A stretch of DNA of 64,000 bases from Oceanihabitans sediminis (GTDB taxonomy: Bacteria > Bacteroidota > Bacteroidia > Flavobacteriales > Flavobacteriaceae), in contig NZ_QPIG01000001.1 of assembly GCF_003337215.1 (NCBI RefSeq), positions 124,001 to 188,000 of the forward strand, read 5' to 3'. Below, in pieces: positions 7-8,961 of this stretch (its first letter is position 1; every line of letters starts with the position of its first letter). The position numbers were made by a program, and so were the translations under genes. A model generated the notes under the pieces. That model was not told the origin of the DNA. It saw only the letters and a list, made by a program, of their open reading frames with translations, and did no database searches.

Positions 7-1155
7 TTACGACACTTTGTATTTACTGGCAAAAAATGGATACAACTCTTTTAACAAAGCCACTCCATTCTCAGAAGATTCAATAATTATGATTTTATCA
101 CCAATTTTATTATTACGTTCTACGTAACCTTTATTTAATAAATATTTATCACAAAAATAATTGCCATTATCATCTTGAGCTATTATGCCCTTATGAAGAA
201 ATTCCTCTTCTTTCTTTAACTCCCATTTTGCTTTATTTCTTTCAATATTCGAATTATCATCGATAAACTCCTTCATATAGTCAACAATATCCAGTAGCAG
301 ATAAATAGTGCTCTTATAAAGGTTATGATTTTTACTTAAAGATAGATATTCATCCGCTCGTAGTTTTTTTCCGTTATCATGAGATCCATCCTGAGTTATA
401 TTTAATATTCTATAAATGTTTTCAGCTACCATGGGGTGAATCAATTCACTGTAATACTCGTAACTAGTATTTTGCCCTGATAGGAAGTAACTTGAACCAC
501 TGATTCCTCCATGAACGTGACGAATTTCATCTGGGATCAATCCGATTTCATTTAATTTATCTAAAATAGCTTCCATAATCTTTCTTATCGGGTTCAGCAT
601 ATCTTGAGCTAACTTAATTTTTTCTGGATTTTCTATATCTTTTATGAGGCCAATCATTCTTTCAAAATGATTTGCTCCAATATATTTATTTGTGCAAATT
701 TCAAACTGATTTGGGTATTTATGTTTCAACTGTGTGATTTCTTGTTGATCAGCAGCCGCTATAACTTTTTCTATAAACCCCTTATTATCAACACCTTTAA
801 TTACAATAGGCACATTAAATCTTTCAACCCATTTTATATCCCCTTTATATTCCAATTTGTTTAACTCACCAGTAAAAACAAAAACAGGAAACCATTTTAA
901 TTGCCTTAACTCAGAAATTTTATTAAGAGAATTAATTAAGCCATCAATACTATGTTCTTCATTCTCACTTTCATTGTAAGCAAGACCATCCAATATCACT
1001 GCATCGAAATAGTTCGTTTTCATACCTGACTCTAATATAGCCATCCCTTCTTTTGATGTTTTGTAATGAACAAGCTCAATTCCATTTTGATAAGCAAGCC
1101 TATCAAAATCTTTGTTAAAATCATCATCAATCCACAGAACTTTATATTCTTTCAT
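7..1155 (-). CDS. Response regulator with unassigned helical C-terminal domain
   Basis: This 382-residue protein begins with a receiver domain (about residues 3-135). All key residues are visible: the acidic pair D10/D11 in WIDDD, phospho-acceptor D56 in VILDG, T95 in FVFTGE and K120 in VIKG. The rest (about 140-382) is not a DNA-binding output domain I recognise. It is mostly helical, with a helix starting at R191 and a later QDGSH motif, vaguely like DUF4145/HEPN-type helical domains; that resemblance is only a guess. The start overlaps the 3' end of the methylase-kinase gene by 14 bp, so the two are probably translationally coupled. By inference this is the phospho-acceptor partner and effector of the fused kinase. 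The stop lies 7 bases from the window edge, so more cassette genes could follow outside. Confidence 0.8.
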   Translation of the reverse strand: MKEYKVLWIDDDFNKDFDRLAYQNGIELVHYKTSKEGMAILESGMKTNYFDAVILDGLAYNESENEEHSIDGLINSLNKISELRQLKWFPVFVFTGELNKLEYKGDIKWVERFNVPIVIKGVDNKGFIEKVIAAADQQEITQLKHKYPNQFEICTNKYIGANHFERMIGLIKDIENPEKIKLAQDMLNPIRKIMEAILDKLNEIGLIPDEIRHVHGGISGSSYFLSGQNTSYEYYSELIHPMVAENIYRILNITQDGSHDNGKKLRADEYLSLSKNHNLYKSTIYLLLDIVDYMKEFIDDNSNIERNKAKWELKKEEEFLHKGIIAQDDNGNYFCDKYLLNKGYVERNNKIGDKIIIIESSENGVALLKELYPFFASKYKVS

Positions 1156-3658
1156 GTTTTTCTAGTTTAAACATTACACCTACTTTAAATTCTTCGTTTT
1201 CATTATTAATTAAATCCCATTTCAAATTGTGAGATTTTGCAAATATGCCAACATGCCAGCCCCCGATACCAGTGTTACCGGTTTTACCAGCTTTCATAGA
1301 TTTTGTACTATAACTTTGTTTAGTTACTCCCTTTGGTAAAGGATCACCATTATTTTCCAAGAGTAAGTCAATGTATTCTCCGTTATCTTTCAATGTGATT
1401 TTAAAAACATTATTTTTTGAATTACCGCCAAACCCATGTCTTATTGCATTATTTAGAACACACTTAAAAGCATTTCTAAGCTGACTTTTATCTGCATATA
1501 TTTTAGTGTAAAATTCATCCTCATCATAAGACTCTACAATACTGAAGGACTTGCAGGATTCTCTTTTGGCTAATTGTTTTATGAATAATTTCACATCAAA
1601 TACTTCTTTTTTTATATCTTCTACAGTATTGGATAATGAGTTAACCTGTTCAGAGATAACCCTAACTGTATCTGTTAAAGAGTTTAATAGTATATCCATG
1701 GTAGTACCATCTCTTTTATCTAAGACAGTCCCTAATTGTATACCATTTGTACGAGAATTAAACTCTCCTTTAATATATTCAACAATAGAATTTAAGCTTG
1801 AAACATCTTGATTTAACATATGACGTTTAGAGCTTAGATCAGCTTCTTGTTCTTTCTTGAAATTATCGAGTTGTTTTTGATATCCCGATTCTAAAACTAA
1901 TTTTTGAAAACGTATTTTCTTTTCACGTTTTACAATATCACTTTGCTGACTCGTTAAACTAGGCACATCTATGATAAGTGATTTGATATCTTTTTTATTA
2001 ATATACTTTATTGCTGCGCCCTTTAAAAAACCAAGTAATTGCCTTTCAACATAGTCTTTATTTAGTTCCTGAACTAAAAAATCTACTAAAACTCTATTTT
2101 CATCAACAGTAAAAATTGCAACATTCTTCTGAATAGCTATTTCTTGATTTAAAGTATCAACAAATGACGGTTTCAAGTCACCCCCTATAGTAGATAAAAG
2201 TAAAGCTCTTCCATTAAATAGAACATGATTTTTAAGATTCCCTCTTTCTTCTAATTTTGAAATATCAATTTCAAAATTATCTATGTTATTAGATAAATCT
2301 TTAATGCTAATAGCTTTCAATAATTCCGAAGGTTGAGACTTATTAATTTTTGCCGGGACAACAAACTCATCCAATCGTTTAGGGTTTGAAAGCTCCCCTT
2401 CAGTTAAAATGTCAAAATATTGAGACGGATATAAGCTATATTTCTTTTTTCTTATCTCTTCTAAGGTAACTATTCTAGAAACATCTTTAACCTCTACAAA
2501 GTCATTATAAATATGGTTTATTTTATTTATAGATTTTTCTGAAAAATACGATCCTTTTACTAACCTTTCTACTAAGGAATCTGTTTCAATCATCAATACA
2601 CTGTCTGTGTTCTTTGCTTTATTTAAAATCCAAATGCAAGTCCTTATTCCAGTGTAATTTATTATCCCACTTGGCATCGTGATAATAGATTCAACGAAAT
2701 TATTTTCTAATAACTGTTTTCGAATCGCAATTTCTTCTTTTTGAGTTGCAAACAATGAACTCTGACCTAATAAAATGACAGCTTTCCCTTTGGAATTAAG
2801 AAGATGAATTGCGTGTTGTACCCAAGCTAAATTCGCATTATTTTTATGAGGTAATCCATACTTAAATCTTGGATCTAATGGACTTACATCTCTACTCCAA
2901 TTAGGTACCTTAAAAGGGGGTTGCATAATTACAAAGTCAGAATCTAAATTTGGAAATTGATTCTCTGCTAGAGTATTTTTAGCTTCACCAAATTGAAATG
3001 AATTTTTATAATTAAATGCGAAACGTAGCTTTGCGATAGCCAGCACAGATCTATCTAGTTCTTGTCCGTAAAATTGAAATTTTTTCTGAGGATAAGTATC
3101 GGCAATTTCCTGAAAAAAACCACCTGAACCACAAGTTGAATCTAAAACAGAACCTTCTGTTGGCGCTAATAATTGAACCATTAATTTTGAAACTGAATCA
3201 GGTGTTGTGAAACTGGTTACGTTTCTTCCTTCATAATCAGAAAACCTTGTAAGTAAGTTACCAATAAGTTTAGAGAAACTTAAATCATCTTGTGGTAACT
3301 CAAGACTTGAAGTTATTTCAAAAAGCTCCCTAATTATATTTAAATCATATTCACCTTTGAATTTTCGGCTAAAATCAAAAAGACTAAATGTATCTTTAAT
3401 CTTATCATTTTGATCCTCTACTGATCTGAAAGCTTCGATTAGAAGGTCCAAAAAATTGAGATTTCGTGAATTTTCAGCTAGATAATCCCAATTAGCCTTT
3501 TGCGTTACTGAAATTTCATTTATTGGGTTATTTGAACACTTATCACTTGCATACTTTAAGAATATTAAAGAAATCACTATTTCTCTAAGTTCTTTTATAT
3601 CCTTACTTCCTCGAACATTGTTAAAAAAACTCCAAAAATTATTTTCTAGACCACTCAT
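1142..3658 (-). CDS. Fused HsdM-like methylase, HsdS-like recognition part and GHKL kinase/ATPase
   Basis: An 838-residue multidomain protein. Residues 1-140 look like the helical N-terminus of type I HsdM. Residues 145-420 are an N6-adenine methylase fold with SAM motif I at 171-182 (DSTCGSGGFF), but motif IV reads QPPF at 246-249 instead of NPPF/Y. Residues 430-590 resemble an HsdS target-recognition half-subunit (STIGGDLKPS, then the AAIKYINKKDIKSLIIDVP...QQSDIV ending). Residues 590-700 are a coiled-coil/DHp-like stretch with H613 as a possible phospho-acceptor, although the usual acidic residue after the His is missing. Residues 715-832 are a GHKL ATPase with N-box NNAIRHGFGG (736-745), G1-like ENNGDPLP (768-775) and G2 GNTGIGGWHVG (794-804). 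It is followed by a coupled response-regulator gene and preceded by a WYL regulator. No HsdR is visible. By inference it senses DNA sequence or methylation state and signals by phosphorelay. Confidence 0.82.
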   Translation of the reverse strand: MSGLENNFWSFFNNVRGSKDIKELREIVISLIFLKYASDKCSNNPINEISVTQKANWDYLAENSRNLNFLDLLIEAFRSVEDQNDKIKDTFSLFDFSRKFKGEYDLNIIRELFEITSSLELPQDDLSFSKLIGNLLTRFSDYEGRNVTSFTTPDSVSKLMVQLLAPTEGSVLDSTCGSGGFFQEIADTYPQKKFQFYGQELDRSVLAIAKLRFAFNYKNSFQFGEAKNTLAENQFPNLDSDFVIMQPPFKVPNWSRDVSPLDPRFKYGLPHKNNANLAWVQHAIHLLNSKGKAVILLGQSSLFATQKEEIAIRKQLLENNFVESIITMPSGIINYTGIRTCIWILNKAKNTDSVLMIETDSLVERLVKGSYFSEKSINKINHIYNDFVEVKDVSRIVTLEEIRKKKYSLYPSQYFDILTEGELSNPKRLDEFVVPAKINKSQPSELLKAISIKDLSNNIDNFEIDISKLEERGNLKNHVLFNGRALLLSTIGGDLKPSFVDTLNQEIAIQKNVAIFTVDENRVLVDFLVQELNKDYVERQLLGFLKGAAIKYINKKDIKSLIIDVPSLTSQQSDIVKREKKIRFQKLVLESGYQKQLDNFKKEQEADLSSKRHMLNQDVSSLNSIVEYIKGEFNSRTNGIQLGTVLDKRDGTTMDILLNSLTDTVRVISEQVNSLSNTVEDIKKEVFDVKLFIKQLAKRESCKSFSIVESYDEDEFYTKIYADKSQLRNAFKCVLNNAIRHGFGGNSKNNVFKITLKDNGEYIDLLLENNGDPLPKGVTKQSYSTKSMKAGKTGNTGIGGWHVGIFAKSHNLKWDLINNENEEFKVGVMFKLEKHERI

Positions 3659-3701
3659 TAATCACAATTTTAAAATTACTCTACAAATTAAAGTCATAAT
3701 A

Positions 3702-3718
3702 ATGCAAAGTAATTGCAT
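3702..3718. promoter_or_regulatory. Inverted repeat ahead of the methylase-kinase gene
   Basis: A perfect inverted repeat, ATGCAA-N5-TTGCAT, lies in the 62-bp gap between the WYL gene stop (3721) and the methylase-kinase start (3658). A TTGCAA half-site also lies upstream of the WYL gene near 4777. The position suits an operator for the WYL protein, but that is inference. The gap has no T-run that would make it a terminator. Confidence 0.4.
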
Positions 3719-3720
3719 AG

Positions 3721-4743
3721 TTAATTTAAATAATATTCACTCATTTTTCTCGTATGTTCACTCAATTGTTCTTTAAGCTTTTCTGGTGCTAAAACTTCAA
3801 CATCTTTACCGTAAGATAATAACTGCTGAACCAACTCATTATTTATAATAGTTTCGAACCATACTTGATCTTGTTTATCATCTTCAAAAAACTCTTCGTA
3901 ATCTGGATGGAATGGTTTTGTTTTAAAATAGTTTTCTCTACCATTATAAAACCGTAAAATCACTTTTTCTATTGGAGCATTTAAAGGCCTTACGACACCT
4001 ACCATGGTTCTGAAAAAATTATTCCAGTCCGTATCTGACTCGACATACTCAACATCTTCAAGAACATTAAACCCAATAATTCTTTCATCTAAAGGAATAC
4101 TCCATTGTTTGATTCCTTTCGAACTATTTAGCCCAAATACAAACCATCGCCTATTATATTGTTTTAGAAGGTACGGATGAAAATCAAAAACACTCGATTG
4201 CTGATCTTTGAAGCCTTTATAATTCATTTGAAGAACTTCTTTTTTCTTAATAGCTAAATAAAGTGGTTTCAGATGTTTAATTCCCTTATATTCTTCATTT
4301 TGGTCGTAAAATAAAATTTTTGAATTATCAGTTTCTGGGTCTTCTTCATCCTGAAACTTGATTAAAGCCTCCGCAAGTTTGTTATATTTTGGATGGTTTT
4401 GAAATCTTTCCAACAACTGTTGGGCGGCATCAATTAAATATTGCTCCTCTTTTAGTAAAGATTTTTGTGCTATTGAGTAATTGGGGTTTGTATATTTTAA
4501 GATTCTTATTTTTTCTGGTAATGGTGCAGCAAACCCATTTTCTTTATCTCTAAACACCTTAAGGTCTTCTCGTAAAGTTCTTGTAGATATACCTTCTCCC
4601 GGATAATATTCAGCAATTCTTTCATTTACATACCTCAACAATTCTTCAAAATTGTAAGATTTATTACGAAAGCAATAATCTAAAATATTATATCTTAAAT
4701 GTGCGTGGGTACTATTTGCCATTCCATAATTTTTTGAAAACAT
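3721..4743 (-). CDS. WYL-domain transcriptional regulator
   Basis: A 340-residue protein with an N-terminal helical/wHTH part (about 12-65), a WYL domain (about 160-245, with the HPYLLKQYNRRWFVFGLN segment) and a WCX-like C-terminal extension (about 255-335). WYL proteins are ligand-sensing DNA-binding regulators that often control phage-defence operons such as BREX and CBASS islands. It is the first gene of the cassette and lies 62 bp ahead of the methylase-kinase gene on the same strand, so it probably autoregulates and controls the cassette. A second in-frame ATG at codon 8 is an alternative start. The family assignment is secure; the target is inferred. Confidence 0.87.
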   Translation of the reverse strand: MFSKNYGMANSTHAHLRYNILDYCFRNKSYNFEELLRYVNERIAEYYPGEGISTRTLREDLKVFRDKENGFAAPLPEKIRILKYTNPNYSIAQKSLLKEEQYLIDAAQQLLERFQNHPKYNKLAEALIKFQDEEDPETDNSKILFYDQNEEYKGIKHLKPLYLAIKKKEVLQMNYKGFKDQQSSVFDFHPYLLKQYNRRWFVFGLNSSKGIKQWSIPLDERIIGFNVLEDVEYVESDTDWNNFFRTMVGVVRPLNAPIEKVILRFYNGRENYFKTKPFHPDYEEFFEDDKQDQVWFETIINNELVQQLLSYGKDVEVLAPEKLKEQLSEHTRKMSEYYLN

Positions 4744-4820
4744 TAAAAATATAACTTTTAAACTATAAAGTATAATTGCAAATGATATAATTCAATTGTT
4801 TACATCTTACGCCTAATAAA

Positions 4821-5261
4821 TTATGATCTTCTCAACTTTAACAAATAATTCAATTGCTGTATTTCTTGTTTCAATAGTTCAATATCCTTTTTTGTAGCAG
4901 GCAAGCTATTTGGCATAAACATCTTTTTTGCAGTGTAGATAGCAGCATCAGCTGCTACAGAACCTAACGCTACATTTTTAATATCCGAAGCAAGAGCCCC
5001 TTTAGTTTCTTTTTTTTGATTTGCTAAAAATTCCACTTTATTTTCTAACTCCACAAGTTGTTTACTAATTAAATCAGGAGCCATTAATTTATCTTGCGAC
5101 TCTACCTCTTTCTTTTCTTTTTGGTAATGACCAGAAATATATTTGTAGTTATTACGCTTATAACTTGCTTTTGTTTTACAACTTGTAGTGCAGTAAACAT
5201 GATTACTTCTTCTTGATTGAAATGGCTCATAACAATGCTTACAATTTTTAATTTTTTTCAT
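4821..5261 (-). CDS. Small zinc-ribbon protein with coiled coil
   Basis: A 146-residue protein with an N-terminal zinc-binding signature C7-x2-C10-x13-C24-x3-C28, followed by a basic stretch, a heptad-like segment (about 58-85) and a C-terminal helix (about 122-146). I do not recognise a named family beyond zinc-ribbon proteins of mobile elements. It sits between the DnaC-like ATPase gene and the WYL gene, all on one strand, so it is probably part of the element's replication/maintenance set rather than of the cargo. A DNA-binding accessory role is plausible but not shown. Confidence 0.6.
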   Translation of the reverse strand: MKKIKNCKHCYEPFQSRRSNHVYCTTSCKTKASYKRNNYKYISGHYQKEKKEVESQDKLMAPDLISKQLVELENKVEFLANQKKETKGALASDIKNVALGSVAADAAIYTAKKMFMPNSLPATKKDIELLKQEIQQLNYLLKLRRS

Positions 5262-5318
5262 GTTTTTGTCGTTGATTTGGTTATTAATACGTTAAATAAG
5301 GTTTAATTTAACCTTTTA

Positions 5319-6044
5319 CTATGTTCTTAAACTTGGACCTGAAAAAGTTATAACGTTAAACATTTCGAACAACCTATCATATATTCTGTGTCCATACCTT
5401 ACTCCCATCGCTTCAAGTGTTTCATCAACATCATTTGATGAGGAAGCAAAGTTTGCAGTTGCATAGGTTACTAACTTTTTTTCATACCTATTAGATAGCA
5501 AATTTCCTACTACATCAAAAATGCCATAATTACTTGCGTTATTCTCTGCTCCTAAATCATCTATACAAAGTAGTTTTCTTTCTTTATCCGAAAAAAAATA
5601 TTCTTTTTCCATAGGAGTTGAACATTTTTCATAATCGCTAACAAGAGATTTTGAACTATAGACCTTAAATCTTAATGGATTATAGAACTTAAATACTCTT
5701 TCAAAAACCTTAAAATAGTCTGTTTTACCTATACCTACTCCTCCAATTATCAATAAACCTTTATTGAAGCTTGGTGTATTCAAACCTTTTATAAGATTGC
5801 TACAATTGAAAAACTCTAAGTCATTTAAAAAATAATAAAACAACACTTTAATATTTTTGATTGTATATGCATTTTCAATAAAATGCTTACCATACATATC
5901 AAAAAAAGTGTACTTAAAAACTTTCCATAATTCTTCTTTAGTTGGTGGATTTGGTTGCTTGATCACATTTTCATCAATAATGTTTTTCACTCCTTGCATG
6001 TTACTAAACAATTGCCCTACAGATTGTGTATCGTTGTATCTCAT
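5319..6044 (-). CDS. DnaC/IstB-like AAA+ ATPase (helicase-loader type)
   Basis: A 241-residue ATPase with a Walker A motif GGVGIGKT at 101-108 and a Walker B motif LLCIDDLG at 158-165, as in DnaC/DnaI/IstB-type helicase loaders. A sensor-like Thr/Asn segment (TYATANF) follows. The N-terminal 90 residues are helical and would contact a helicase or initiator. The gene starts one base after the stop of the winged-helix gene, so the two are cotranscribed. This pairing resembles phage and plasmid replication modules. By inference it loads the host replicative helicase at the element's origin. IstB is less likely because no transposase gene is adjacent. Confidence 0.75.
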   Translation of the reverse strand: MRYNDTQSVGQLFSNMQGVKNIIDENVIKQPNPPTKEELWKVFKYTFFDMYGKHFIENAYTIKNIKVLFYYFLNDLEFFNCSNLIKGLNTPSFNKGLLIIGGVGIGKTDYFKVFERVFKFYNPLRFKVYSSKSLVSDYEKCSTPMEKEYFFSDKERKLLCIDDLGAENNASNYGIFDVVGNLLSNRYEKKLVTYATANFASSSNDVDETLEAMGVRYGHRIYDRLFEMFNVITFSGPSLRT

Positions 6045-6045
6045 T

Positions 6046-6732
6046 TTAAGCTAACTTTCTATTGGTTTGTAATTCTGTTTTCTGATTGTATCTGCTTATC
6101 GTAGTCCTCTCATTTTCTTTCCATTTATTTAAGCGTGTTTCAATTTCAAAAAATTGCTCTTTTTCAAATCTCATTTTTGTTTTATCTGAATTTAACTCAC
6201 TCCAATAATTAAAAAAGGATTCTAAAGTTTTAATATTAAAATTAGAGAAAGAGAAAACCTGCTCTCTAAATATTTTTTTTCTATTTATTATATTATTATT
6301 TTTATTATTAGTTGTTGCTATTTGATTGTTAAATGATTGTGATTCGTTTGCTAAGCGATTGTCAAATCGTATGCTATTTTGTGTGCTACTTTGATTGTCA
6401 ATGTTTCCATAATTGACTTCTGCTACAAAATCATTTAAATTAGGGATAGAAATTTTAGTGTAACTGGTTGTGGTTTCAATAGCTAAAGCACTTGTCAGTT
6501 CTAGTTTTGATAAAGCAGTCCTTACTTTACTAACTGTAAGTCCAGTTTCAACAGCTAACCTCTCATAAGAAGTAATAAACTCTCCTTTCCTTACAACGAT
6601 TCCTTGCCACTTTTTATCACTATAATTAACTTTAATTAAGCAATGAAAAAAAACCTTACATGCATTTAAGTCTGTATACCATTCCCAGTCCACTATCCCG
6701 CGTAACAACATAATAAATCCTGAATTTGTCAT
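6046..6732 (-). CDS. Winged-helix replication protein, DnaD/RepA-like
   Basis: A 228-residue protein. The first ~110 residues look like the winged-helix N-terminus of phage/plasmid replisome organisers (GFIMLLRGIVDWEWYTD, then KGEFITSYERLAVETGLTVSKVRTALSKLE as a recognition wing/helix). The middle (about 120-155) is Asn- and Ser-rich and probably disordered. The C-terminal ~75 residues are helical with an FFNYWSELN segment that recalls DnaD-type domains. It lies immediately upstream of the helicase-loader gene and about 350 bp from the repeat array, as expected for a protein that binds an iteron origin. The role is inferred from order and domain likeness. Confidence 0.65.
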   Translation of the reverse strand: MTNSGFIMLLRGIVDWEWYTDLNACKVFFHCLIKVNYSDKKWQGIVVRKGEFITSYERLAVETGLTVSKVRTALSKLELTSALAIETTTSYTKISIPNLNDFVAEVNYGNIDNQSSTQNSIRFDNRLANESQSFNNQIATTNNKNNNIINRKKIFREQVFSFSNFNIKTLESFFNYWSELNSDKTKMRFEKEQFFEIETRLNKWKENERTTISRYNQKTELQTNRKLA

Positions 6733-6796
6733 TTTTACCTATTTTTAATTCTAATAAACTATCTATCATACAATTTCAACATACCTGTGTTCACCT

Positions 6797-7000
6797 CTAA
6801 ATCTTTAGATTTTTGAACAAGAAATCTTGAGCATCCTGTTCTGTAAAAACAGGCATTCTTTTTTTCTGTTTTTTATTAATTGATTTAGGTTTTGGTAACA
6901 CATCAAGTGTAGACAATTTTGTCTCCAGCAAACAATATAGCCTTACCAATTCCTCTTCCGGAAGTAGCTTAGTTATTTCCATTACTGTTGATGCGTCCAT
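6797..7000 (-). CDS. Small helical protein of unknown function
   Basis: A 67-residue, mostly helical, charged protein (first half MEITKLLPEEELVRLYCLLETKL, then a basic KPKSINKKQKKR stretch). I recognise no family. It lies between the repeat array and the winged-helix gene, on the same strand and with only 64 bp to the next gene, which argues that it is real and belongs to the replication module. It could be an excisionase-like or copy-control protein, but no motif supports either. Confidence 0.45.
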   Translation of the reverse strand: MDASTVMEITKLLPEEELVRLYCLLETKLSTLDVLPKPKSINKKQKKRMPVFTEQDAQDFLFKNLKI

Positions 7001-7080
7001 AATCCCCTTAAGAAAACAGCTTATTAGGTGTTTGTTATTAATTATTTAAGACAAACATAACACAGCACTTTTTTGGGGTG

Positions 7081-7220
7081 TGCCGATTTGCGCACCTTTG
7101 CGCACCTTTGTGCCGGTTTTTGCCGATTTGCGCACCTTTGATCCGTTTTGCGCACCTTTGCGCACCTTTGATCTGTTTTGCACACCTTTGATCCGTTTTG
7201 CACACCTTTGATCCTTTTGG
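7081..7220. repeat. 10-bp-phased iteron-like array (putative origin)
   Basis: Fourteen consecutive 10-mers are in perfect register. Most end in TTTG and alternate between CGCACCTTTG (or CACACCTTTG), ATCCGTTTTG and TGCCGATTTG. Pairs give 20-bp units such as CGCACCTTTG-ATCCGTTTTG. A period of 10 matches about one DNA turn, so all units face the same side of the helix. The array lies between the replication genes and the integrase and is followed by AT-rich DNA. Plasmid iterons are usually 17-22 bp, so the 20-bp pairs fit. It is probably where the element's initiator binds. Confidence 0.75.
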
Positions 7221-7346
7221 ATTTGATCCAAGGCTTTAGAAAACTCCTAACAATACAGGAATAGATCTTAATACAGAAATGATCACCTGAATTTCATTAT
7301 ATTAATCAATACTTAATTAATATAAATTAGAAAATCCTTAAAAAAC
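7221..7346. other. AT-rich tract beside the repeat array
   Basis: About 125 bp of non-coding, strongly AT-rich sequence (for example 7300-7345) directly after the repeat array. It would suit an origin unwinding element, but no DnaA box matching TTATCCACA was seen. Nothing coding is supported here. Confidence 0.3.
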
Positions 7347-7433: not shown

Positions 7434-8834
7434 TCATTTATAAAAACGAGAAAAATCTTCTGGCAATTCTGCATCAATATCTCTTAGGTAACTTTCTAAT
7501 GCAGACATAGAAGAATGACCTGTTATAAGCATCAGTTTACTTTTAACAGCATGTGGTGACATATTAGGCTCTTTTGATATTTTCTTATAAAGCTCTGTAG
7601 TAGCTGTATGCCTAAAGCTATGTAAACTATAATCTACACTTAAGCCAAAATGTTGTTTTACTTTTTTAAATCGATTTGTAAAATACTCACGTTTAGACCC
7701 TTCCTTAATTTCCCATTCCCCACCTATTTGAGATTTTGTAAATAAGTAATCCGAAGGTGAAAACGAACTTAAGTCAGGTATTTTATCTAGTAGGATTTTA
7801 GGAATAATTTTTTCTTTCACTAACTTATTTTTAGCTTGAACATGCATTTTATTATCAATTAGATTTATATCTCCTATTTTAAGTCTACACACCTCTATTG
7901 GCCTTAAAAAACCATAATAAATAAAGTCAACAAAAAGAGATAAAAGAGGATCGTTTTCCTCCATATATTCTTTTATATCTCTAAGCTGTGTTGAATTATA
8001 AGACTTATTACGTTTAGCTTTTGACGTAAGTTTATTTATTTCTTTTACAAAGTTATTGTGTAATACATCATTGTCTATTAAGGTTTGTATAAAAGTACTA
8101 ATATCAGTTCTAGCGTTGTTTCGGGTTCTAGCGCTAGTCTTTTGCAATACTTGATTTAAATATTGTATCACAATCTTTTTATTGATCTTATCAATTGAAT
8201 CTGTTTCTTTAAATCCATTCTCATATAGCCATCTATAAAATTGATTTATTCGACTTTTAAATTTTGGAAATGAATTACTATTAAGGACTTGTTCTTTAGT
8301 ATCTAAAACTAATTTTTGCGCCTCTACAATCGTAATATTCTCCTCCTTAGCAGCAACATCTTTCACTTGTAAAGTTTCTTTAGGTATAGCTCTAATAACT
8401 TCAACTGTTTTTGGAGCATCGTTAATGATTGGTTTTGGCTCCTCCTTAACAACTATTTTCCTACCACCCATTAAATTATCTCTAACATGTGAATTATCTT
8501 TTAAGTAAGGATTATATCCTGCATCAAGAATATCTGCAAGTTTACGTTGAATAGGTTTTAGAATAGCTAATCTTTCTTTCCTTGTCTTATAACTATTAGC
8601 AGATGCTTTAATTCTTTTTTGCTGTATTAACTTACCTGTCTCAGGATTTCGAAAAGAATAATACACATACCATGGTTTACTAAGAGCTGTTTTTTGCTCT
8701 TTTTTGGTAAGCTTAGACCAGTTATTAATATCCACACCTCCTGTGTAGATTTTAGGTTCATTGTAGTCGGGTTTCATAGCAAAATCATGTACTGAATCAT
8801 GTACCTGCAATATAAAACTTAAAATTGAAGACAT
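7434..8834 (-). CDS. Tyrosine recombinase (element integrase)
   Basis: A 466-residue phage-type integrase. The N-terminal ~160 residues form an arm-type and linker region. A SAM-like core-binding domain (about 165-270) and a catalytic domain (about 280-455) follow. Catalytic residues can be placed: R311 (GFLRPIEV), a beta-hairpin Lys near 335, H405-x2-R408 (HSFRHT), H440 (TGHSS) and nucleophile Y449. It catalyses site-specific integration and excision. It lies 54 bp from the 3' end of an initiator tRNA gene and reads away from it, the classic layout for a tRNA-targeting element. The longest start (8834) sits directly on the U-tract of the tRNA terminator, so Met20 at 8777 is a credible alternative. 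Confidence 0.9.
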   Translation of the reverse strand: MSSILSFILQVHDSVHDFAMKPDYNEPKIYTGGVDINNWSKLTKKEQKTALSKPWYVYYSFRNPETGKLIQQKRIKASANSYKTRKERLAILKPIQRKLADILDAGYNPYLKDNSHVRDNLMGGRKIVVKEEPKPIINDAPKTVEVIRAIPKETLQVKDVAAKEENITIVEAQKLVLDTKEQVLNSNSFPKFKSRINQFYRWLYENGFKETDSIDKINKKIVIQYLNQVLQKTSARTRNNARTDISTFIQTLIDNDVLHNNFVKEINKLTSKAKRNKSYNSTQLRDIKEYMEENDPLLSLFVDFIYYGFLRPIEVCRLKIGDINLIDNKMHVQAKNKLVKEKIIPKILLDKIPDLSSFSPSDYLFTKSQIGGEWEIKEGSKREYFTNRFKKVKQHFGLSVDYSLHSFRHTATTELYKKISKEPNMSPHAVKSKLMLITGHSSMSALESYLRDIDAELPEDFSRFYK

Positions 8835-8865
8835 AAAAAAAAGGGTTGTGAATACACAACCCTTT
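8835..8865 (-). terminator. Terminator of the tRNA gene, abutting the integrase start
   Basis: A hairpin AAAGGGTTGTG-AATA-CACAACCCTTT (8840-8865) followed on the minus strand by six Ts (8840-8835). It lies 24 bp past the tRNA 3' end. The first possible ATG of the integrase (8834-8832) follows the T-run at once, so integrase transcription either starts inside or depends on read-through. Confidence 0.8.
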
Positions 8866-8888
8866 GATTTAATTAGCTTTAAGCTTCG

Positions 8889-8961
<73 letters not shown>

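Follow-up and report, generated by a model that had tools for sequence, protein, structure and literature searches.

A methylase-derived histidine kinase, its response regulator and a WYL protein as a candidate control head for restriction operons

Histidine kinases and receiver proteins are put to defensive use in Detocs, which is not known to have a methylase or specificity sensor. A kinase-based controller standing next to varied immune operons is described for CapK+CapS, a kinase-repressor pair found just downstream of a restriction-modification (RM) system in 88 of 443 cases; CapK, an HTH-STAS-GHKL protein activated by single-stranded DNA (ssDNA), phosphorylates a serine of its STAS-wHTH repressor, and CapW is cited there as a WYL repressor that senses ssDNA (PMC13373217, EMBO J 2026). 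The WYL regulator BrxR sits in a defence locus with two inverted-repeat operators in its island, with repeats of 11 bp and a 5-bp spacer (PMC9122601). For relatives of McrBC, the CoCoNuT paper reports operons shared with DNA methyltransferase and two-component genes, mentioned in the excerpt available without a fusion, an operator or a type I RM context (PMC11090510). The unit described here lies in a 64,000-nucleotide stretch of the Oceanihabitans sediminis genome (NZ_QPIG01000001.1, positions 124,001 to 188,000; the window) and consists of a WYL regulator, an HsdM-HsdS-histidine kinase fusion (MSK) and a response regulator (RR).

By a small margin over even odds, the three genes are best read as a mobile head controlling restriction operons of modular make-up, a DNA-sensing phosphorelay and a WYL regulator that would work alongside restriction, not in place of it. 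In contrast to CapK+CapS, the sensor is of HsdM-HsdS type, the partner carries an aspartate receiver and a WYL protein is the likely DNA-binding component; domain searches of MSK and RR found no STAS domain, and returned instead an HsdM/HsdS-histidine kinase and a receiver-helical-OB protein. Compared with BrxR, the repeats have 7-bp arms and a 7-bp spacer and a kinase-RR pair is attached. The parts are of the same kinds as in the McrBC relatives, and one locus (L082) reads MSK-RR-McrB-McrC. The N-terminal two thirds of MSK resemble HsdM plus half an HsdS, and separate hsdM and hsdS genes are usually found beside it, in most cases together with hsdR; unlike a type I RM protein, MSK lacks conservation of the methylase motifs and comes with a kinase and an RR. 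Against the equivalog model of the MADS MAD2 methyltransferase (NF047738), MSK scored 31.8 bits, far from the cut-off of 720. A literature search whose coverage mostly excluded subscription journals and preprints returned no paper describing an HsdM-HsdS-kinase fusion. The available parts of studies on BREX diversity (PMC12839542) and RptR (PMC12255303) contain nothing of this kind, and those of the DefensePredictor paper (PMC13092281) contain no methylase fusion and name HATPase together with REC in a single figure legend.

Recurrence of the unit and its restriction cargo

All three genes lie on the minus strand in the order WYL > MSK > RR. The WYL gene (3721..4743, 340 amino acids) is followed by MSK (1142..3658, 838 amino acids) and RR (7..1155, 382 amino acids), the last two overlapping by 14 bp; these places and the overlap agree with an earlier reading of the letters alone (the sequence-only reading). 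To collect relatives, RR was searched for in 395 genomes from the order and in 395 from the phylum, the two sets overlapping in part, and a pattern scan was made of an 84,980-species collection, which gave 46 loci that, to judge by their names, are all Bacteroidota. In total, 63 loci with an MSK-labelled open reading frame (ORF) were obtained, including a Myroides plasmid and the present locus, and removal of seven at 90% identity or more left 56 non-redundant loci. One locus (L080) was counted by kinase similarity although Pfam finds no methylase there, and three with weak RR matches and no MSK label (L047, L083, L084) were excluded. RR adjoins MSK in 59 of the 63 loci, always co-directionally and with an overlap or gap of -35 to +52 nt, and the remaining four comprise three contig ends and one MSK split in two. 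Of the 54 loci at which an ORF precedes MSK, 41 have a WYL gene as its immediate upstream neighbour, in 38 cases on the strand of MSK.

Downstream neighbours were counted at the 52 non-redundant loci where 3.5 kb or more of sequence follows MSK, with gene labels from self-made seed profiles that divergent HsdMs could escape. Within the next 14 ORFs on the same strand, HsdM was present at 41 loci, HsdM and HsdS at 40, and HsdM, HsdS and HsdR at 35. Two loci (L101, L106) carry R-M-S upstream of the head, bringing those with HsdM near it to 43, and no HsdM was recognised on the head's strand at nine; one of these, L081, has a piece of HsdM on the other strand at the edge. Immediately downstream of RR stands HsdM at 30 of 56 loci and DUF2130 at six, and at L045 oppositely oriented genes stand between head and RM genes. 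Modules around or replacing RM include SIR2-HerA (L042), GmrSD (L040, L043, L076), PLD (L039), a NERD-helicase (L043, L044), AAA_15 with UvrD (L078) and McrBC (L082), and genes near heads also include a Drt2-like reverse transcriptase and several with no family match. The unit usually lies beside a DNA-cutting defence operon, which it probably switches on and off.

At the present locus (L007), the same-strand run goes on leftwards past RR with genes for DUF2130, HsdM, HsdS, a Drt2-like reverse transcriptase and HsdR. HsdR, HsdM and HsdS were identified by Pfam and PADLOC matches in one run (L007:10096-18645), a whole type I RM locus. The sequence-only reading had seen no HsdR, which holds within the window, and had named an HsdR just left of it in the same operon as the finding that would count against replacement of restriction by signalling; the gene was looked for and found in the same-strand run, 6.4-9.9 kb left of base 1. 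That reading would equally have suffered had homologues always been plain RM systems, which they are not, given the nine loci without a recognised HsdM on the head's strand. Its expected recurrence in islands without hsdR came out in part: the MSK-RR pair recurs, mostly beside HsdM and often with HsdR.

Pairwise identities were correlated across the 33 loci with all five genes (528 pairs, raw values without phylogenetic correction). MSK and RR gave a rho of 0.70 and HsdM and HsdS one of 0.61, with 0.07 for MSK-HsdM, -0.01 for MSK-HsdS and 0.28 for MSK-WYL. MSK and RR thus diverge jointly and independently of HsdM and HsdS, and therefore form a swappable head, which the computation shows to have been exchanged between RM cargos.

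Searches of other collections gave 27 loci on viral contigs, in 18 of which the query match stops at residue 374, making them mainly HsdM-like. In the plasmid search, RR was found only in three Myroides records, and the phage search returned a single unannotated gut scaffold (L199; MT835483.1:14067-24492). The record of this scaffold names it 'Bacteriophage sp.' (unverified), and at 1996-7230 it carries MSK-RR-HsdM, operator and TTTG included; as a guess, it is probably mobile DNA of Bacteroidales or a contig with the wrong label.

Domain make-up of the kinase and response regulator

The HsdM-like, HsdS-like and GHKL parts that had been read from the sequence are all present in the one 838-residue protein, the kinase and specificity parts being made firm by family profiles. 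Pfam reports HsdM_N (2e-6) and N6_Mtase (8e-60) in MSK, and HATPase_c on the single sequence reached 0.0056 (17.6 bits), below its cut-off of 26.4. PADLOC type I specificity models matched at best at 7e-9 (Specificity_I, residues 440-578). A family profile of 35 relatives matched a type I M subunit chain (2e-53), the HsdS chains 5ybb and 3okg (~4e-15, residues 489-569) and a PDB histidine kinase (4e-11, residues 585-814). A kinase-only profile gave 3a0r, presumably ThkA, as top match (6e-11) and 4i5s (VicK-like, 1e-10), and the nucleotide box NxGxPxP is common to 3a0r and MSK.

Structure predictions of the two single proteins, proposed earlier as a check, were run with AlphaFold2. The MSK model, of moderate confidence (pLDDT 74.7, pTM 0.56), places the parts in the order methylase, target recognition domain (TRD), long helix with H613, second helix and GHKL-like domain. 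The methylase domain (residues 133-417; 2408..3262, minus strand as for all parts) was delimited by N6_Mtase, motif alignment and Foldseek, its best match being the PacII M subunit (E 7e-21), and its fold resembles DNA-bound type I M subunits. A single HsdS-like specificity half (residues ~425-590; 1889..2386) was placed by profile and PADLOC matches, and a coiled coil or DHp-like helical hairpin (residues 568-678; 1625..1957) by the model, with helices at 568-636 and 654-678. The HATPase (GHKL) domain (residues 685-834; 1157..1606) corresponds to the 3a0r and 4i5s profile matches.

H613 of the hairpin (codon 1820-1822) is kept in 55 of 55 MSKs reaching that position, N737 of the N-box in 53 of 53 and N769 and G771 likewise in 53 of 53, so that the histidine, N-box and glycine boxes of a two-component kinase core are all present. 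The role of H613 is assigned by position and conservation because alignments with known kinases do not span it. The methylase motifs behave differently from those of the neighbouring HsdMs. Motif I of this copy (DSTCGSGG) is near-canonical and fails the strict rule, and its motif IV (MQPPF) has Q for N. Under that rule, in a joint alignment, no MSK out of 56 has both motifs canonical, as a working M subunit would: 26 keep NPP[FYW], three more have SPP[FYW], two have motif I only and 25 neither. Both are canonical in 36 of 41 neighbouring HsdMs, all 41 of which have NPP[FY], the other five combining it with a motif I that is near-canonical. The search pattern skews the frequencies of motif I, and loci found without that pattern also never have both motifs. 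Selection appears to have kept signalling and let catalysis drift, and the lost motif conservation fits the sensor role that the sequence-only reading gave to the methylase half. The TRD is about as conserved as the methylase part (mean identity 0.36-0.40 versus 0.38). A reading in which the TRD recognises the target of its own RM system was tried and rejected, cognate versus other HsdS at 42 loci giving a permutation p of 0.10 and a median rank of 18 of 42.

The RR model (pLDDT 88.2) consists of a receiver (residues 1-136), a helical domain (139-310) and a beta-rich C-terminal OB-like part (311-382). The receiver is intact, as had been read from the sequence, and has the residues expected of a two-component system: D10, D11, D56, T/S95 and K120 are each kept in at least 51 of the 52 RRs, the phosphoacceptor D56 (codon 988..990, minus strand) and K120 in all 52. 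The 50 best PDB matches of the model in Foldseek are receivers or response regulators, PorX first; Pfam finds no family in the window's own RR. Within the helical domain, R191 (51 of 52), E195 (49 of 52) and H259 (52 of 52) are conserved. An assignment of this domain as DUF4145/HEPN was rejected, hhalign against a DUF4145-containing HsdR N-terminus being not significant (probability 1.3%, E 0.04). Among 36 RR relatives, S1CSD-TOTE-2 matches 13 and CSD two with E values no higher than 0.1, the own RR having neither, and the RR family profile gave weak matches to cold-shock chains (E 0.015-0.05). The OB part, which suggests nucleic-acid contact, is missing from several RRs (such as that of L046, 305 amino acids). 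For the C-terminal effector domain foreseen by the sequence-only reading there is no recognised counterpart, the region consisting of a helical domain and of a part that in many relatives is an OB fold of S1/cold-shock type.

Small ORFs in two genomes of the same family (L017:1495-1719 and L018:1498-1719) resemble the RR C-terminal part, beside an apparent ribonucleotide reductase gene. At L080 (4759-10188), a protein with a weak HATPase match and an RR homologue are followed immediately by a weak match to Csx1-CARF and by Cas6, possibly a CRISPR-linked version with no recognisable methylase.

The operator-promoter and its candidate binder

The family shares a predicted operator, CTRTGCA-N7-TGCAYAG, an inverted repeat with 7-bp arms followed at a fixed distance by TTTG. 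In the window, the site CTATGCA-N7-TGCATTA (3700..3720, minus strand) begins right after the WYL stop codon, and the end of its TGCA-N7-TGCA core (3703-3717, minus strand) stands 45 positions from the MSK start. At a fixed offset from the operator follows a -7-like element, TTAATTTG (3684..3691, minus strand); the Bacteroidetes -7 consensus is TAnnTTTG. TGCA-N7-TGCA occurs near the MSK start at 40 of 56 loci, against a mean of 0.07 and a maximum of 1 in 500 base shuffles, and spacers other than N7 (0-15) give 0-3 loci. With a position weight matrix (PWM), a site was found before MSK at 45 of 56 loci; TTT stands at offset 16-18 in all 45 and G at 19 in 44. TTTG at the corresponding distance flanks one side of 15 of the 31 PWM sites elsewhere, among them all four before DUF2130 and one of two before AAA15, and none of the seven sites inside genes has it. 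Outside the training set, the site with TTTG is present at L199 and also at L162 (1492-4000), between a WYL gene and a divergent reverse transcriptase gene that it faces, with no MSK in the ~1.5 kb flank examined; this is possibly a second use of the same operator. Upstream of WYL, the commonest 10-mer reached seven of 38 loci (three in shuffles) and is apparently WYL coding sequence.

The WYL protein is the probable operator binder. Pfam reports WYL (2.8e-6) and WCX (2.3e-10), both passing their cut-offs, and no HTH family, the HTH-like region being assigned from the conserved N-terminus. Over 36 loci, site variation correlates with variation of this region (rho 0.33, p 0.001) and also with that of RR (0.21, p 0.007; 0.15 given WYL) and of the MSK methylase part (0.18, p 0.03), with lower values for the MSK TRD (0.15, p 0.06) and kinase (0.06, p 0.20). 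An unlikely alternative is that MSK itself binds through a TRD dimer, as the bipartite geometry of the palindrome, present before MSK at 45 of 56 loci, resembles that of type I targets. Partial correlations go the other way, with 0.31 for the WYL HTH given the TRD and 0.08 for the TRD given WYL, and the site of L162 has no MSK in its examined flank. Moreover, a WYL of this family is absent from three genomes with MSK-like genes (L079, L080, L081), and the DNA examined there contains no site. Several observations nonetheless count against the WYL protein: L127 has WYL and a divergent MSK and no site, which is also a point for the TRD; the site is missing from 22 of the 24 WYL loci that lack MSK, in a survey of 30 of the WYL matches; and L090 and L040 carry a site with no WYL next to it, a WYL match being present in both genomes.

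Candidate signalling mechanism and the mobile element

In the proposed mechanism, MSK would be a sensor kinase that reads DNA and derives from one methylase/specificity half of type I. A DNA cue would lead to phosphorylation of H613, from which the phosphate would pass to D56 of RR. A WYL dimer would occupy the operator, at the place expected for the -33 element in the promoters that serve MSK-RR and some cargo genes, and would most likely repress these promoters until the alarm, when phosphorylated RR may relieve repression or act on the cargo. By analogy, and as a guess, a nucleic-acid alarm could link the OB part of RR with CapW-like ssDNA sensing. A more specific version, tentatively held, is a two-component system whose catalytically relaxed sensor reads DNA modification state, recognising invading DNA that is unmodified or host DNA that is under-methylated; such a system could be attached to many restriction or abortive cargos, so that they are switched on only when needed. 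In our judgement it is largely open how RM systems time their action and how they spare host DNA during methylation lag; if the proposal is true, a methylase-derived sensor kinase would make the expression of restriction genes and of abortive genes embedded among them depend directly on how the DNA is modified, and the conserved head with its predicted operator provides a handle for finding defence cargo.

It is conceivable, with perhaps one chance in a few, that MSK-RR is itself the effector, MSK detecting foreign or unmodified DNA and phosphorylated RR acting directly through its helical and OB domains, with nuclease activity or growth arrest as conceivable outcomes, and control of transcription being left to WYL alone. 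An RR that has no DNA-binding output domain, conserved helical residues, a hint of nucleic-acid contact and a pair that stays constant while cargo varies would all suit this; the helical domain, however, has no significant likeness to the HsdR N-terminus, the best structural matches are receivers and response regulators, and several RRs dispense with the OB part. MSK could also be a working methyltransferase tuned by its kinase part, so that an ordinary RM system would have two modification enzymes. The NPP[FYW] or SPP[FYW] motifs of 29 MSKs, the near-canonical motif I of this copy and the M subunit fold fit that reading, which is made improbable by the complete absence of jointly canonical motifs, QPPF in this copy, kinase residues that are invariant instead, and the separate HsdM and HsdS that usually accompany MSK. 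The replacement of restriction by signalling, for which the nine of 52 heads without a recognised nearby HsdM might speak, is refuted for this locus by its HsdM, HsdS and HsdR in the same run and has almost no probability left, M, S and R lying downstream at 35 of 52 loci and HsdM near the head at 43.

The operon of the control head sits in an element of ~24 kb at tRNA-Met (8888-8961, minus strand). The element's tyrosine integrase is encoded at 7434..8834 (minus strand; Phage_integrase 1.7e-11), and the right copy of a 144-bp direct repeat (8787..8930, two mismatches) includes the 3' half of tRNA-Met; the left copy lies outside the window (G000:C11:108686-108829). Within the operon, the DUF2130 protein is encoded at L007:18666-19940, its family being the one that directly follows RR at six of 56 loci. 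The Drt2-like reverse transcriptase gene (L007:13668-15197) lies between hsdS and hsdR, and genes resembling it also follow hsdS at L114, L115 and L130. Downstream of HsdR, a 587-residue protein (L007:8245-10008) with no Pfam or PADLOC match has an operator-like site of its own, and ORFs similar to it are present at L109 and L119.
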